Below, in pieces: positions 43,031 through 49,646 of a stretch of DNA of 64,000 bases. Numbering within the stretch: position 1 is the first letter of the stretch; every line of letters starts with the position of its first letter. The notes beneath the pieces were generated by a model. That model worked only from the letters and a program-made list of their open reading frames with translations. It did not search any database and had not been told where the DNA came from. The translations under genes were made by a program, and so were the position numbers. The DNA comes from Ramlibacter sp. WS9 (GTDB taxonomy: Bacteria; Pseudomonadota; Gammaproteobacteria; Burkholderiales; Burkholderiaceae_C): NCBI RefSeq assembly GCF_003797765.1, contig NZ_RKMB01000002.1, forward strand, positions 62,001-126,000, in the 5' to 3' direction.

Positions 43031-44398
43031 TCATCTCCTCAGGAATTCCGGGGCCACGAGCAGCAGCGCCAGCGCGGTGCCACCACTGTCGGCACGGGCG
43101 ATGGCACCGGCGGTGGCTTCGCTGAGCACGCCGCCAGGCAAGACGCGTGGGGCGAGCGCGCGCGCGTCGACGGCGTTGCCCGCCTGTTCGGCCAGTCGCT
43201 GCGCCGTCTCGACGCGCCGGATCAACGCATCGGGCGCAGCCCAGGTCCCGGCCAGGTCCGCGTAGCCGGCGGGCGAGCCGGGCCGCCACACCGGTTGGCC
43301 GAGCTGGTTCATGAGGTTGGCGGCTTGCCTTGCCGGCACCTCGCGCCGTCCCATCGCGCGCAGGCCGGAAATGCTCCACTCCCACGGCGACTTGAACTTG
43401 GCCTGGGCCGGCAACCATGCCTCGGGCGAACCCACCAGTTCGCGGTAGACGCTGGGCAAATCACCGCCCGTGCGAGCGAAGGTGTCGGCCAGGCGCCGCA
43501 CGAGCGCCGGCGGCGGATCGTCGGCGACGAAGTGACGCGCAAGTTTGGTGGCGATGTGGCGCGCAGTCGCCGGCGCGGTGACCAGGTCGTGGAGGATGGC
43601 GCGGGCCTGCTGCTCGCCGCCTTCGGCATAGCTTCTGCCGAGCACCGTGCGCGCGCCGGGTTCGTGCAAAGCGGCGACGAAGCGGAACGTCGCCGCGGAG
43701 CCGTCTGCAGATCCATCGCCCGGCAGGGTCCAACCCGTGAGCGCCCGCGCGAATTCGGTCACGTCGTCCTGCGTGTAGCCGCTGCGCACGCCGAGCGTGT
43801 GCAGCTCCAGGATCTCGCGCGCCAGGTTCTCGTTGAGGCCGCGGCCGCGCTGCTGCCGCTCCTGCGCGCGCCGGGCCACGAAACTTTGCGGGCCGATCGA
43901 CTGCGCCTGGTCGAGATAGAGCAGCATGGCCGGGTGGCGCACCACGGCCAGCAAGAGGTCTTCGAAGCGCCCCAGCACATTGGGGCGGATGGCATCGGCC
44001 TCGAAGCCGCCGGCCATGGCCACCACCAGCAGCTTGTCCACGGACACCGCGAAGTGGTTGGACCAGAAGTGCACCAGCCGTTCCACGAACGGCGTCGCGG
44101 TCTGCAGCGCGTTGGTGGTGCGGGCACCTACGGCCGCCAGATATTCTTCCCGGCCCGTGCGCAGATAGGCCTCGCGAATCCCGCTGCGCTCGCCCTGCGG
44201 CGCCTGCCGGACGGCGCGCTGTTGGGCGAGCCAGGAGTCGACCAAGGCCGGGGTGTGGGCAACAGGTTTCCAGGGCGCCGGCAAGGCCTCGTATTGCTCG
44301 AACTGCGCGAGCAGCCATCGCTGCGGATCGGCCGGCGCAGGCTCGTCGGACCGCGCACCGATGCCGAAGCGGTTCAGGGCAATTGCAAGAGCGCTCAT
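43031..44398 (-). CDS. DUF1800 domain protein
   Basis: A 455-residue protein. Family motifs are ALNRFGIGARSDE at the start, LVHFWSNHFAVSVDK, GRGLNENLAREILELHTLGV, then RSGYTQDDVTEFARALTGWT and KLARHFVADDPPPALV. There is no classic signal peptide, although relatives are often secreted. The partner DUF1501 protein is Tat-exported, so a folded complex could be carried out together; this is speculation. The stop lies two bases before the DUF1501 start on the same strand. Upstream is the 619-base gene-free repeat region. Confidence 0.89.
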   Translation of the reverse strand: MSALAIALNRFGIGARSDEPAPADPQRWLLAQFEQYEALPAPWKPVAHTPALVDSWLAQQRAVRQAPQGERSGIREAYLRTGREEYLAAVGARTTNALQTATPFVERLVHFWSNHFAVSVDKLLVVAMAGGFEADAIRPNVLGRFEDLLLAVVRHPAMLLYLDQAQSIGPQSFVARRAQERQQRGRGLNENLAREILELHTLGVRSGYTQDDVTEFARALTGWTLPGDGSADGSAATFRFVAALHEPGARTVLGRSYAEGGEQQARAILHDLVTAPATARHIATKLARHFVADDPPPALVRRLADTFARTGGDLPSVYRELVGSPEAWLPAQAKFKSPWEWSISGLRAMGRREVPARQAANLMNQLGQPVWRPGSPAGYADLAGTWAAPDALIRRVETAQRLAEQAGNAVDARALAPRVLPGGVLSEATAGAIARADSGGTALALLLVAPEFLRR

Positions 44399-44590
44399 GG
44401 CCGCATTGTGAAACGGGTAAACGCAACAACTCGTGTCGGGGTTGTATCCGAAAGGTAAAGCGCAGCTGAAGATGATCGAGTGCAGGAAGAACGAGTGGCA
44501 GCAATGCGAGCGGCCTTCGGGTGAATGAGGACCTGAGCGAGGCCCCGTAGGTTCCCGGTATTTCAGAGATCGAAGAGACTGGCGTTCTGA
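44399..44590. other. Upstream region of the DUF1800 gene
   Basis: This is the first part of a 619-base stretch without a gene. It must contain the leftward promoter of the DUF1800/DUF1501 pair; TTTCGGATACAACC-type sequence is present, but I could not fix -35 and -10 boxes. I see no reading frame, repeat or RNA gene in it. The rest of the gap (44591-45005) is repeat sequence. Confidence 0.4.
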
Positions 44591-45005
44591 GACCTCGCGG
44601 CAACGCCGTGCATGGCCGGGCCGCGGCGCGATGGCTACGGCGTTGCTGTGAGATGGTGGCGTGCCAGCGGTGGCGTGCCACTGTCTTTGCCGACGGCGGA
44701 GGGGTGGCCAACGACCGGTGGCGCACCAACAAAGTCCCTGCGAAGCTGTGCGTGGGCGGGCTGCGGCGCGAATAAAGCCCAGGCGCTTGCGGCGGACGAC
44801 CCCGCGACCCAGCACGGCTCAAGCCGTGCGACCGTCTCATGCTCGCGAAAACTGTTTGACCGGAGCGAAGCGCAGGGAGTTTTTTCGCGCGGGTCGCGGG
44901 GTCTCCCGGCGCAAGGGATTCGGCAGGAGCTTGCGACAGCAGGCGATGCCGAACGCCGTAGCCATCGCGCCGCAGCCCGCCCACGCACAGCTTCGCCGCG
45001 AGGTC
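44591..45005. repeat. Three copies of a GC-rich repeat unit in an intergenic region
   Basis: A unit of about 54 bases occurs at 44591-44644 (plus) and, inverted, at 44952-45005. Both have the core GCGGCGCGATGGCTACGGCG and start GACCTCGCGGC. A 31-base part occurs again in plus orientation at 44741-44771. The 31-base copy is perfectly complementary to 44965-44995. No open reading frame with sensible composition crosses it. It looks like a lineage-specific dispersed repeat that has inserted or expanded here. Confidence 0.6.
44741..44995. repeat. 255-base nested inverted-repeat element
   Basis: Outer arms are a perfect 31-bp inverted repeat (44741-44771 with 44965-44995, starting CGAAGCTGTGCGTGGGCGGG). 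Inside is a second perfect 13-bp inverted repeat, GACCCCGCGACCC with its complement (44798-44810 and 44891-44903). A tight hairpin GCACGGCT-CA-AGCCGTGC lies at 44812-44829. A region from CGCGAAAAC to TTTTTTCGCG (about 44844-44889) can pair imperfectly. Transcribed, it would fold into one long branched hairpin. It could be a MITE-like element or a structured RNA. No target-site duplication was identified. Confidence 0.55.
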
Positions 45006-45017
45006 CAACCAAACCGA

Positions 45018-48000
45018 CTAGCGGCGCTTGCGCAGCAGCAACTCGTCCACCACCGCGCTCAGCTTGCGCAGGTCCACCGGCTTGGTCATGTGGGCATCGA
45101 AGCCGGATGCCAGCGCCTCGCGCGCATCGGACTCCTGGCCCCAGCCGGTGGCGGCGATCAACACGATCTTCTTGCCCCACTCCGTGCCGCGGACCTGGCG
45201 CGCCACCTCGTGGCCGTTCAGGTCGGGCATGCCGATGTCGAGGATGCCGACGTCGGGCCTCTGTCGCTGCATTTCCTGTACGGCCTCGAGCCCGCCGCTC
45301 ACGCGAACCGTCGCGAAGCCGGCGATCTCCAGCAACCGCGCGATGCCCCAGCCCGCGTCGATGTTGTCGTCGGCGATCAGCACCAGGCCGCGCGTTTTCG
45401 ACTTGGCGGCCGCGCCGGCTGCGGGCACGGTGACGCCGGGCGCCGGCACCGGCGCTTCAACCGCCTGCACCGCGCCGCGCACCGCGGGCAGCATCACGCG
45501 GAACTGGCTGCCCTGCCCCGGCCCGGCCGAAGACGCCTCGACCTTGCCCCCGTGCAGTTCGACGATGTTTTTCACGAGCGCCAGGCCGATGCCCAGGCCG
45601 GTCTTGCCGCGCTGGGCCGCGGGCTGGACCTGGGTGAACATCTCGAAGATGCGCTCCATCTGCGCAGACTCCATCCCCACACCGTTGTCCGTCACCGAGA
45701 CGACGGCGCTCTTGCCCTCCAGCCGGGCCTTGAGGGCAATGCGGCCGCCGGGTTGCGTGTACTTGATGGCGTTGGTCAGAAGGTTCGACAGCACCTGGCC
45801 GATGCGCAGCGGATCGGCATCGAGCTCCACCGCGTACTTCGGCATGTCCAGCGTCAGGCTGTGGTGCGCGGCGTGCAGCAGCGGCCGCGTCGCCTCCAGT
45901 GCCGTGTCGACCACGGTGGACAGCATCACGCGTTCGCGGTGCAGCTCGAACCGGCCGAGCTTCAGGCGCGACACGTCCAGCAGGTCGTCCATCAAGGCCT
46001 TCATGGCTTCGGCCTGGCGCTTGACCACCTGGGCGGCCGCATCCCGGTCCGTGTCGGGCAGCTCGTGCGTGAGCAAGAGCCCGGCCGCGCTGTCGATGGA
46101 GGCCAGCGGGTTGCGCAGCTCGTGCGACAGCACGGCCAGGAAGCGGTCCTTGGCGCGGTCGGCTTCTTCCAGTTCGGCGCGCGCCCTTTCCGTGTCGGCG
46201 AGCGCGCGCCGCAACTGCGCCTGGCTGTGTTCCAGGGCCTGCTGGTTCTGGCGCTGCGCCGTCTGGTCGCGCAGGATCTTGACGAACCCCACCGCTTCGC
46301 CTTTTGCGTCGCGCATCAGCATCATCACGCCGCTCGCCCAGAAGCGGCTGCCGTCCTTGCGGCGATGCATCCGGTCGTCGCTGGCACGGCCCTGCTCCTG
46401 TGCGGTGGCGCCTTCCCGGTCGGGCGCGCCTTGCGCGCGGTCTTCCTCGGTGAAGATGATGTCGGCACTGCGGCCCATCACCTCATGTTCGGTGTAACCC
46501 AGCAAGCGCTGCGCGCCGCTGTTCCAGATGGTGACGCAACGCTTCAGGTCGGTCGAAAATATGGCGTACTCCGTCGCGTTCTCCACCACGAGCCGCAGAC
46601 GCTCCTCGCTGTTGCGCAACTTCTCGGCGGCCTCTTTCTGCTGCGTGATGTCGCGCGCGATCTTGGTTCCGCCGATGACCTTGCCCTGCGTGTCCTTGAT
46701 CGGCGAGATGGTCAGCGCGACGTGGATGTTCGTGCCGTCCTTGCACTGGCGCATCGTCACGAAATTGCTGATCGATTCGCCGCGGCGCACGCGATCGATC
46801 AGTTGCACTTGCTCCTCCTCGCTCCCCGGCGCAAGCAAAGTCAGCGGCTGGCCAATGGCCTCCATCGCCTGCCAGCCGAAGATGCGCTCGGCCCCGGCGT
46901 TCCATGACAGCAGCGTCTGGTCCAACGCGAAGCTCATGATGGCGTCCATCGACGAACCCACCACCGCCGACAGCCACAGCCGCACTTCCTCGGCCTGCTT
47001 GCGCTCGGTGATGTCGATGAAGGACACCACGACGCCGGCGATGTGGTCGCTCAGCGTTCGATAGGGCAACAGGCGCGACAGGAACCATTTGCCGTCGGGC
47101 AGGCCCACTTCGCGTTCGATCGGCACCAGCCGCTCCAGCACCCGCGCAGCGTCCGCGCTGAGCTGCGGATAGTCCAGGCGCGTCGCGAGATCGGCGAGCG
47201 GCCGGCCCAGGTCGGTGGCGATCAGGTTGAACAGCGTGATGGCCGACGGCGTGTAGCGCGTGATGCGCAGCTCGCGGTCCAGGAACACCGTGGCGATGGA
47301 CGTGGCGTCCATCAGGTTCTGCATGTCGCTGTTGGAGTGCCCCAGCTCGTCGACCTTGTCCTTCAGCTCGTGGTTGACGGTGGTCAATTCCTCGTTGATC
47401 GACTGCAGTTCCTCGCGGCTGGTTTCGAGTTCTTCGGTGGCGGAGCGCAGCTCCTCGTTCATGGCCTGCAACTCCTCGTTGCTGGCCTTCAGCTCTTCTG
47501 TCGACGCTTCATACTGCTCCACGGTGTCGCGCAGGTGCGCCTTCAGGCGCTCCAGCTCGCGGTCGAGGTGGCGCGCGACGGGGTCGGCACCGGCACGCTC
47601 CGGTTGTGCCGCATCGGCCGGCACGGCAGTGCCCGTTGGCCGCGCGCTGAGCGTCACCAGGAACATGTCGGTCCCGATCGCGCGGGCCGGCGTCGCCCGG
47701 ATCTCGACTTCGATGCTTTCGCCCGCGAGTTCGACCGGGCTCACCAGCACGTCGGCGGTGGCGTTGGTCTGCGCGGCCTTGTACAGCGCCGCGCGCAGCT
47801 CGATGCGCAGGCTGGAGTGCACGGCGTGCAGCAGGTTCTTGCTCGGCTCGCCGCCGCTGTACTGCAGGAAGCGGCCGGCATTGGGCGACAGGTGCAGGAT
47901 TTCGTGTTCGCCATCCACCAGGATCGACGGCGGCGCCAGCGCTTCCACCAGCTTGAAATGCAATTCGCCCAGGGAGCCGCTGCGGCCCTCGCCCACGCGT

Positions 48001-49646
48001 GACGGCGGCGCCGGGGCCGCGGCATGCTCGAAGGCGCGTCCCGCGATCACCGGGCCGGTGTGCGCATGCTGCTGCGCCACCAGGGCCAGGGCGAGCGTAC
48101 CGGTGCCCAGGGGTAGCGGCAATGCCATGCGCGGCAACGGGCGCTGGGCGAAGATGCGGTTTTTCTTGTCCAGCACCGTGAACAGCGGCGCGGCGTCTTC
48201 GGCCGATTCGGACGAGCCGAGGAACAGCCGGCCGTTGGGCACCAGCGCGAAGTGGAAGATCTCGAACACGCGCTTCTGGGCTTCACGGTTCAGGTAGATC
48301 AGCAGGTTTCGGCACGAGATGAGGTCCAGGCGCGAGAAAGGCGAATCCTTCAGCAAGTCGTGGTGCGCGAACAGCACCATCTCCCGTACCTCGCGCCGCA
48401 CCCTGTAGCCGCGGTGTTCCTTGATGAAGTACCGGCGCAGGCGCTCCTCGGACACGTCGGCGGCGATGGTGGGCGGGTAGCTGCCTTCACGCGCGCTGCG
48501 GATCGCATCTTCGTCCAGGTCGGTCGCGAAGACCTGGATCATCGGCGGCGCCTCGATCTCGCGCGCCTTTTCCGTCAGCAGGATCGCCAGCGTGTACGCC
48601 TCTTCGCCCGTGGCGCAGGCCGGCACCCAGACCCGCACGGTGTCGTTCGGGCGCTTGCCCGTGAACAGCGCGCCCAGCTGCTCGTTCAGCGCGTCGAAGC
48701 AGTCGGCATCGCGAAAGAAGTTGGTGACGCTGATCAGCAGGTCTTGCAGCAACGCGCCGGCCTCGCCCGGCTGGGTGCGCAGGCAATCCAGGTAGCCGGT
48801 GAGGTTCTCGACACCGTTGACCTGCATGCGGCGGGCGATGCGGCGCACCACGGTGGCCCGCTTGTAGTTGGCGAAATCGCGGCCCGTGCGCGTGCGCAGG
48901 AATCCCAGCACGTCGCGCAGTTCCGACTCCTGGTCGGCGCGGGTGGGCGGCTTGTCGTGGGTGGGCGGCGGTCCCTCCTCGGGCGGTAGCTGCAACTCCT
49001 TCTCCAGCGCGAAGTAGCGGGCCACGCGCCCATGCATGTCGGCAACGGGCAGCACCCAATCGACCATGCCGGTGGCGATGGCCGAGCGTGGCATGCCGCC
49101 GTGTTCGGCCTCTTCCGGATCCTGCGCGACGGTCAGGCCGCCGCGCTCCTTGATGCGTTTGATGCCGATGGCCCCGTCGCCGTCGGCGCCCGACAGCACG
49201 ACGGCCGCCGCATGCGGCCCGTAGGTGTCGGCCAGGGTGCGAAAGAACAGGTCCACGGCCACATGACGCCCGCGCGGCGTCAGCGCGTCGTCCGCCAGCA
49301 CCAGGTAGTTGTCGACGGCACGAATGGCCTTGCCCGGCGGGATCACGTACACGTGGTTGGGCTCGACGCGCTGCCGGCCTGTCACCTGCACCACGGGCAT
49401 GGACGAGCTGTGCTGGATCACCTCTCTCAGGTGACTCACGTGTTCGGGATCCAGGTGCATCACCACCACGAACACCTGGCCCGGGTTGGCCGGCACGGTT
49501 GCGAAGAATTTCTGCAGGGCGGGAATGGCGCCGGCCGAGCCGCCGAGACCGACCAGCGGGGTCAACTGGTAGCCGCGCGTGGGCACCACGTTGTCGATCA
49601 AATCCGCCATCGCCAGCTCGGCGTGGTCGGGCGTCATGTCGGTCAT
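45018..49646 (-). CDS. CheB-CheR-PAS-histidine kinase-receiver hybrid
   Basis: A 1542-residue fusion. Residues about 30-210 are a CheB methylesterase (S37 in GGSAG, H64 in VMHLDPEH, D155 in LSGADGDG). About 240-500 are a CheR methyltransferase with the SAM motif VPACATGEEAYTLAI and CRNLLIYL. About 560-675 is a PAS-like region, and 695-775 a coiled coil of EEL repeats. PAS domains span about 780-880, 890-1000 and 1015-1130. The kinase follows, with H1175 in LSHELRNPLASI and ATP-binding NAIKYT and GKTGLGIGLALVKN. The receiver spans about 1420-1540, with D1470 in GILDIGMPDLNG. All catalytic residues are present. No chemoreceptor genes are near, so methylation and esterase activities may act on the protein itself or on another target. 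It follows the CheB/zinc-ribbon gene by 36 bases. Confidence 0.93.
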   Translation of the reverse strand: MTDMTPDHAELAMADLIDNVVPTRGYQLTPLVGLGGSAGAIPALQKFFATVPANPGQVFVVVMHLDPEHVSHLREVIQHSSSMPVVQVTGRQRVEPNHVYVIPPGKAIRAVDNYLVLADDALTPRGRHVAVDLFFRTLADTYGPHAAAVVLSGADGDGAIGIKRIKERGGLTVAQDPEEAEHGGMPRSAIATGMVDWVLPVADMHGRVARYFALEKELQLPPEEGPPPTHDKPPTRADQESELRDVLGFLRTRTGRDFANYKRATVVRRIARRMQVNGVENLTGYLDCLRTQPGEAGALLQDLLISVTNFFRDADCFDALNEQLGALFTGKRPNDTVRVWVPACATGEEAYTLAILLTEKAREIEAPPMIQVFATDLDEDAIRSAREGSYPPTIAADVSEERLRRYFIKEHRGYRVRREVREMVLFAHHDLLKDSPFSRLDLISCRNLLIYLNREAQKRVFEIFHFALVPNGRLFLGSSESAEDAAPLFTVLDKKNRIFAQRPLPRMALPLPLGTGTLALALVAQQHAHTGPVIAGRAFEHAAAPAPPSRVGEGRSGSLGELHFKLVEALAPPSILVDGEHEILHLSPNAGRFLQYSGGEPSKNLLHAVHSSLRIELRAALYKAAQTNATADVLVSPVELAGESIEVEIRATPARAIGTDMFLVTLSARPTGTAVPADAAQPERAGADPVARHLDRELERLKAHLRDTVEQYEASTEELKASNEELQAMNEELRSATEELETSREELQSINEELTTVNHELKDKVDELGHSNSDMQNLMDATSIATVFLDRELRITRYTPSAITLFNLIATDLGRPLADLATRLDYPQLSADAARVLERLVPIEREVGLPDGKWFLSRLLPYRTLSDHIAGVVVSFIDITERKQAEEVRLWLSAVVGSSMDAIMSFALDQTLLSWNAGAERIFGWQAMEAIGQPLTLLAPGSEEEQVQLIDRVRRGESISNFVTMRQCKDGTNIHVALTISPIKDTQGKVIGGTKIARDITQQKEAAEKLRNSEERLRLVVENATEYAIFSTDLKRCVTIWNSGAQRLLGYTEHEVMGRSADIIFTEEDRAQGAPDREGATAQEQGRASDDRMHRRKDGSRFWASGVMMLMRDAKGEAVGFVKILRDQTAQRQNQQALEHSQAQLRRALADTERARAELEEADRAKDRFLAVLSHELRNPLASIDSAAGLLLTHELPDTDRDAAAQVVKRQAEAMKALMDDLLDVSRLKLGRFELHRERVMLSTVVDTALEATRPLLHAAHHSLTLDMPKYAVELDADPLRIGQVLSNLLTNAIKYTQPGGRIALKARLEGKSAVVSVTDNGVGMESAQMERIFEMFTQVQPAAQRGKTGLGIGLALVKNIVELHGGKVEASSAGPGQGSQFRVMLPAVRGAVQAVEAPVPAPGVTVPAAGAAAKSKTRGLVLIADDNIDAGWGIARLLEIAGFATVRVSGGLEAVQEMQRQRPDVGILDIGMPDLNGHEVARQVRGTEWGKKIVLIAATGWGQESDAREALASGFDAHMTKPVDLRKLSAVVDELLLRKRR

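Follow-up and report, generated by a model that had tools for sequence, protein, structure and literature searches.

REPINs and BIMEs are paired hairpins, inverted to each other and dispersed as a unit, and REPINs are presumably moved by an enzyme that acts in trans. Correia/NEMIS and ERIC are bacterial MITEs. The palindrome elements derived from IS200/IS605 carry subterminal hairpins on the same strand and insert without duplication. The Yersinia palindromic sequence is 168 bp long, as given in the part of PMC2229807 used here. In the parts of PMC3733652 used here, the CGTC REPs have a CGTC or TGTC tag, a stem of 8-9 bp beginning with A-T pairs, a loop of 4-5 nt and a CCA tail.

The element described here lies in a 64,000-nt stretch (the window) in contig C103 of the source genome G000 (6.98 Mb, 180 contigs; G, L and C label genomes, loci and contigs). 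It resembles REPINs and BIMEs in that two inverted hairpins are dispersed as a unit and presumably mobilised in trans. However, it is several times longer, its hairpins are nested and it has no matching RAYT. With Correia/NEMIS, ERIC and the Yersinia sequence it shares terminal inverted repeats or palindromes, the lack of a transposase, many copies and an intergenic position, but it is larger and made of two modules, and in the comparisons below neither a target duplication nor a parent insertion sequence was found. It also resembles the IS200/IS605-derived elements in its subterminal hairpins, its insertion without duplication and its hairpin strand polarity; in contrast to theirs, its polar hairpins are inverted and not same-strand, and the partner searched for was Y1_Tnp. 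We place the element among the dispersed palindromic repeats, as a new variant. We consider it probable that it is a non-autonomous, REPIN/MITE-like palindromic element and that its modules work as single strands in folded form, either RNA or ssDNA. This reading does not require a host function.

Table 1. Features of the window copy and its neighbouring genes (window positions).
Feature	Position	Strand	Remark
Element copy, internally deleted	44591..45005	+	module B rightward; paired-hairpin family
Left terminal inverted repeat	44591..44644	+	module A outer-arm remnant; 89% complementary to 44952-45005
Left-end outward extension GGCGTTCTGA	44581..44590	+	resembles the extension in several other copies (GCGYTCTGA)
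Linker, module A / module B	44645..44734	+	conservation below that of the modules
Module B inner arm, perfect 32 bp	44740..44771	+	
Module B outer arm, perfect 32 bp	44965..44996	-	
Inner stem 5' arm, perfect 13 bp	44798..44810	+	
Inner stem 3' arm	44891..44903	-	
Side hairpin GCACGGCT-CA-AGCCGTGC	44812..44829	+	8-bp stem, 2-nt loop
Conserved core, read inner-to-outer	44841..44889	+	begins GCTC
Core lower stem	44844-44851/44882-44889	+	
Core TGTTTGA	44853-44859	+	
Core apical insert	44860-44876	+	
Core GAGTT	44877-44881	+	
Right terminal inverted repeat	44952..45005	-	module B outer arm + end
CheB/CheR-PAS-histidine kinase-receiver gene	45018..49646	-	stop 12 nt from the element's right end
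DUF1800 gene	43031..44398	-	start codon 192 nt from the element's left end

In the window copy the left outer arm is joined straight to the linker and the remainder of module A is gone. Since the leftmost 54 bases are complementary to the right end at the level given in Table 1, we regard them as the opposite terminal inverted repeat; the sequence-only reading had correctly seen there a diverged 54-base copy of the arm. The same reading had described perfect 31-bp outer arms, perfect 13-bp inner arms and an 8-bp central hairpin in a 255-base unit. The inner arms and the hairpin are present as described and the outer arms pair perfectly, but the latter measure 32 bp and the unit 257 bp. The inverted repeat 44735-44771/44965-45001 holds at 95% over 37 nt. 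Shuffling 44591-45005 while keeping dinucleotides (100 shuffles) gave a longest perfect inverted repeat of 9.3 bp on average and 14 at most. The fold of 44735-45005 reaches -184.6 kcal/mol on the + strand (z -11.8) and -179.5 on the - strand (z -9.4). The region is gene-free as had been claimed, as far as tested: four overlapping ORFs gave no Pfam match at E 0.1, to a transposase or otherwise.

The own genome gave 191 matches to the 415-base query. A 24-base arm sequence, with up to three mismatches allowed, was found at 63 forward and 62 reverse places, against 0 and 1 for the reversed control. Whole or partial copies occupy at least 39 places (the window and 38 fetched loci), a lower bound with 40 of 105 candidates scored, so a single-copy sequence is ruled out. 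L077 and L078 are further partial copies beyond the 39, and L077-L080 are partial copies or a lone arm. Of the 38 copies measured, 22 are 609-647 bp long and the rest 267-524 bp. The usual form of about 620 bp has two nested hairpin modules of about 255 bp, A and B, placed back to back and oriented oppositely; a linker of some 90 bp separates them, and an outer arm closes the element at either end. The 67 modules measured range from 160 to 294 bp and are mostly 252-260 bp. Contigs C93, C105, C117 and C158 end inside copies, which is expected since repeats break assemblies.

For four copies (L053, L022, L038 and L036) both flanks were searched against related genomes, and each site lacks the element in at least one relative. 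At L053 both genes are adjacent without an insert in G040 and G010, that is in two of 12 genomes; they lie far apart in G013, and the others have one flank or none. At L022 the aligned flanks are 14 nt apart in G040 (one of 12 genomes), compared with about 750 bp in G000. The L038 flanks are near each other in seven of ten genomes, four of which have no insert, with gaps of 2 nt in G040, 5 in G042, 38 in G003 and 41 in G007; about 520 nt (G013) and 620 nt (G009) separate them elsewhere, with no listed match to the element. The L036 flanks are 33 nt apart in G033 (one of ten genomes), and G003 has 1.4 kb between them. In the clearest cases, L022 and L038, the whole insert lies between two stop codons and includes at least some 40 nt outside the recognised terminal repeat. 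Empty sites mean that the element was either inserted in G000 or lost in the relatives; from these comparisons we infer insertion. At the window site, eight orthologues of the kinase gene (L106-L113) stand without the element; the comparison is weak, since none of them had the DUF1800 gene as a neighbour in the relatives checked.

The L038 junction in G033 holds about 300 bp of a different nested palindrome (L173:1202-1500; C45, ~107485-107783), at the convergent junction that carries the element in G000. By eye, it shares sequence with a second palindrome family described below, and the same core is present. These are apparently two independent insertions at one site. With different nested palindromes at one convergent junction in two species, target choice becomes testable there.

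A gene call on both sides was available for 32 of 38 copies and not for the other six. Twenty of the 32 lie between convergent genes, 11 between tandem genes and one between divergent genes. The convergent share is far above the 7 of 46 adjacent gene pairs counted in one 64-kb window with a codon-score gene caller made for this analysis (binomial p 1.5e-9). Where a gene ends toward the element, its stop is 12-88 nt away on 49 of 55 sides. The window copy is a tandem case, with the kinase-gene stop on the right and the DUF1800 gene start on the left.

Such positions, together with the very stable fold, would suit a domesticated bidirectional element at gene 3' ends, acting between convergent genes as a terminator, an RNA 3'-end stabiliser or a collision barrier. 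We regard this as unlikely. Relatives keep the same gene pairs without the element, and at the L053 site a terminator-like G+C-rich hairpin followed by a T run already stands ahead of the insert. The window copy has no U-tract terminator, and no intrinsic terminator was predicted in window 44500-45100. Moreover, the cited parts of PMC3733652 (section 15) and PMC1525189 report a similar liking of REPs for the 3' ends of genes in convergent or tandem pairs, and selection against harmful insertions would leave such a bias. On the preferred reading of a mobile palindromic element, convergent gene tails would be the least harmful places for insertion.

What is new here is the polarity of the modules. 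Near the hairpin tip they carry a core made of CTC, an 8-bp stem, TGTYTGA, a variable hairpin and GAGTT, and this core sits on the strand that runs from the linker to the outer end. In a search that also allowed TGTYYGA, that strand had the core in 30 of the 32 A modules, in 27 of the 28 B modules and in six of seven modules from relatives (63/67 together), and the opposite strand had it in none of the 67. Two of the four modules without the core are only 160-161 bp long. With A and B in inverted orientation, the cores within one element point apart, and divergence holds for each of the 36 pairs of neighbouring cores: 22 come from G000, 6 and 5 from two sets of relatives with some overlapping loci, and 3 from outside the genus. 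The pattern TGTTTGA...GAGTT has a single occurrence in the window, which is the one at the element, against a shuffle expectation of 0.02.

The pairing is kept through changes on both sides. When the A and B majorities are compared, 21 of 76 consensus pairs have changed on both sides and are still Watson-Crick. For the core stems, 105 core occurrences were taken with no stem filter and reduced to 73 distinct cores. The 42 distinct lower stems are 91% Watson-Crick, compared with 54% (at most 66%) when the right strands were reshuffled, and in the 54 distinct apical inserts the first three positions pair in 76%, compared with 47% (at most 57%); since related sequences were counted more than once, the reshuffling serves as a guide and not as a probability. 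Both core stems covary and the loop does not.

Mismatches also differ between the strands. In 15 representatives at 85% identity (G000 and relatives), helices were found without regard to strand and one strand per module was taken by its better model score, a choice that is not fully independent since the model was built from the oriented G000 modules and seven relative modules; the outward strand then had 29 G·U and 5 A·C mismatches. G·U was favoured in 10 of 11 informative representatives (p 0.012). An earlier count in relatives, with some modules entered on both strands, gave 44 G·U and 33 A·C. For structures agreed by both strands the G·U:A·C ratio was 10:4 in A (p 0.18) and 9:2 in B (p 0.065), for the union of both strands' structures 20:7 (p 0.019) and 17:2 (p 0.0007), and within the core stems alone 7:5. 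Since RNAalifold is biased towards G·U on the strand that it folds, one-strand counts were not taken as proof. The mismatch polarity rests on few events, and strand-biased mutation could mimic it.

These data bear on a rival explanation, in which the element is a DNA palindrome and nothing more. It would be a selfish, MITE-like repeat whose folded strand has no function, and gene conversion from one arm to the other would keep the arms alike. The many copies, the terminal inverted repeats, the lack of recognisable coding and the sites without the element all agree with it. Conversion between arms could mimic covariation, and within A and B the two-sided changes are about as frequent as the mismatches, as conversion predicts. 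However, a plain palindrome should have as many G·U as A·C mismatches, and an excess of G·U was seen. It also leaves the conserved asymmetric loop without a reason. We find this explanation rather improbable.

The polarity from inner to outer in both modules, the covarying core and the divergent core pairs, seen also in another genus (g31), would fit modules that are each transcribed, from the linker outward, into a non-coding RNA acting in trans. No sigma-70-like promoter was found at the window copy, however, the linker is poorly conserved compared with the modules, and no Rfam 15 family matched window 44300-45200 at E 1. Tens of similar RNA genes would also be unusual, which makes this reading quite doubtful. 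Across 11 related loci Rfam gave a single match, to an antisense plasmid RNA; it lies in L201 and, at E 0.34, stays below threshold. The structured RNA proposed by the sequence-only reading is thus borne out in part: polarity and covarying core would point to it, but folded single-stranded DNA would be expected to leave the same signs. If the core is RNA, it would be a structured motif common to several genera and unmatched by Rfam in the stretches searched. Chance, or a single decaying repeat, is refuted: short palindromes are common since the region is G+C-rich, but 32-bp arms stand against a shuffle maximum of 14 and there are dozens of copies.

We return to the non-autonomous element acting as a folded single strand. 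Its outward strand, folded as ssDNA or RNA, would be recognised by the agent that copies or inserts the element, and its handling may resemble that of REPINs with a trans-acting enzyme. As a larger relative of such repeats with defined ends, empty sites, strand polarity and a core, it offers a handle for finding their mobilising enzyme. A RAYT was considered for this role. Each of nine genomes has one Y1_Tnp (RAYT-like) gene (L056, L162-L169), and in all nine it is flanked by an inverted repeat of 17-26 nt like AATTGGGGTCAGATTCCAATT, shorter in L168. Since these flanks are unrelated to the element in 9/9 genomes, the RAYT was rejected as the mobiliser. Near these genes we found only two lone REP halves with one mismatch each (L162, L168). 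No transposase linked to the element was found, and among the arm matches listed, as far as they were searched for genes, no autonomous partner or parent insertion sequence with the same ends was seen.

The sequence-only reading had proposed a search for whole copies with flanking duplications. In 34 copies with both ends, direct repeats of k 3-9 were sought as far as 40 nt beyond the anchor; none exceeded the swapped controls, and none was visible at the sites compared with relatives. The earlier suggestion of a MITE-like element largely holds, for copy number, terminal inverted repeats, absence of recognisable coding and the four sites empty in at least one relative; it fails for the target duplication, and an autonomous partner was not seen among the arm matches listed.

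Beyond the terminal repeat the ends sort into types. A 30-nt palindrome, typically TGTC-ATTGCGGA-CTTGA-TCCGCAAT-CCA, lies about 20-35 nt outside the terminal repeat at 21 ends, which belong to 17 of the 39 scanned sequences (22 rows, of which one near the L037 end was dropped as it lies away from the element). Judged by eye, these palindromes fit the CGTC-type REP definition, with a TGTC tag, an 8-bp stem beginning AT, a 5-nt loop and a CCA tail. The likeness to the CGTC superfamily (Di Nocera et al. 2013, parts of PMC3733652) thus covers the end palindromes and the preference for gene 3' ends. The main element falls outside that class, its modules of 160-294 bp comparing with 20-40 bp for REPs. 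Here the REPs are the outermost parts of some copies only, the window copy has none, and structures of 0.3-0.65 kb made of such modules between REPs are absent from the abstract and sections 6, 7, 14 and 15 of PMC3733652. A relative has a REPIN-like doublet at G003 C90:23716-23790, made of two inverted CGTC-type REPs with 13 nt between them. The REP tail (CCATGA) of several copies contains an ATG from which short frames open; leader peptides were rejected because frames and stops vary among copies.

The arm occurs in GTDB records of the Ramlibacter MAG JAUYOG, Caenimonas sedimenti and one MAG labelled Stagnimonas. Within the genus of the source genome, with 11 candidates scored per genome, 21 of 59 genomes including the own matched at E 0.001, though many of these matches are short. 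In the family sample 30 of 399 genomes had a match, in a survey that is coarse since two candidates per genome were scored; among the family rows listed, a module-length match occurs in G000 only, and the remaining matches do not exceed about 60 nt, with several top-ranking ones on the hairpin tip. A plasmid or phage origin was rejected, since neither the 72,556 plasmid records nor the 50,697 phage records searched had a match at E 1e-5. A loose form of the core occurs in five viral contigs, with no inverted repeat around it, and in L205, the contig whose ORFs were listed, it lies inside a reading frame; all five were discarded. Among the matches listed, the titles and abstract openings of the open-access literature on REPs, MITEs, stem-loop families and BOX/RUP do not name the element. 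The words Ramlibacter and Burkholderia are absent from the parts of PMC2267715 and PMC2229807 used here, one of which covers Bordetella and Neisseria among the beta-proteobacteria.

The core was present in eight loci of three other genera of the family (L194-L201), fetched for a matching tip. Inverted repeats surround it in L194, L196-L199 and L201 (short in some), and it also occurs in the other palindrome type at L173. We tentatively suggest, as a possibility that falls short of a favoured reading, a hitherto undescribed superfamily of mobile hairpins with this polar core (CTC, stem, TGTYTGA, variable hairpin, GAGTT), often in back-to-back pairs. Such hairpins would sit in otherwise different palindromes across several genera of a single bacterial family and might be read as folded RNA or ssDNA by an enzyme inserting at convergent tails.

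Several other repeats were observed. L194-L201 hold large structured repeats with the core, several with hairpins such as GACCTACTTTCTTG...CAAGAAAGTAGG. L045, which was left out of the length, direct-repeat and gene-context counts, is an element copy split by an IS110-family insertion sequence (L045:764-2304; G000 C92, ~533264-534803; Pfam Transposase_20, DEDD_Tnp_IS110), a later insertion with short inverted repeats near its ends as judged by eye. IS110 elements target REPs, according to the part of PMC1525189 used here. Nested palindromes of a second family (GCGTCAGGCGGTACCCGGCAGG and variants), with CGTC-type REPs at their borders, were found at L081 (G000 C103:280800-282000), L082 (C90:92500-93700) and L084 (C104:30000-31000), and by eye L081 and L084 have a TGTCCGA form of the core.
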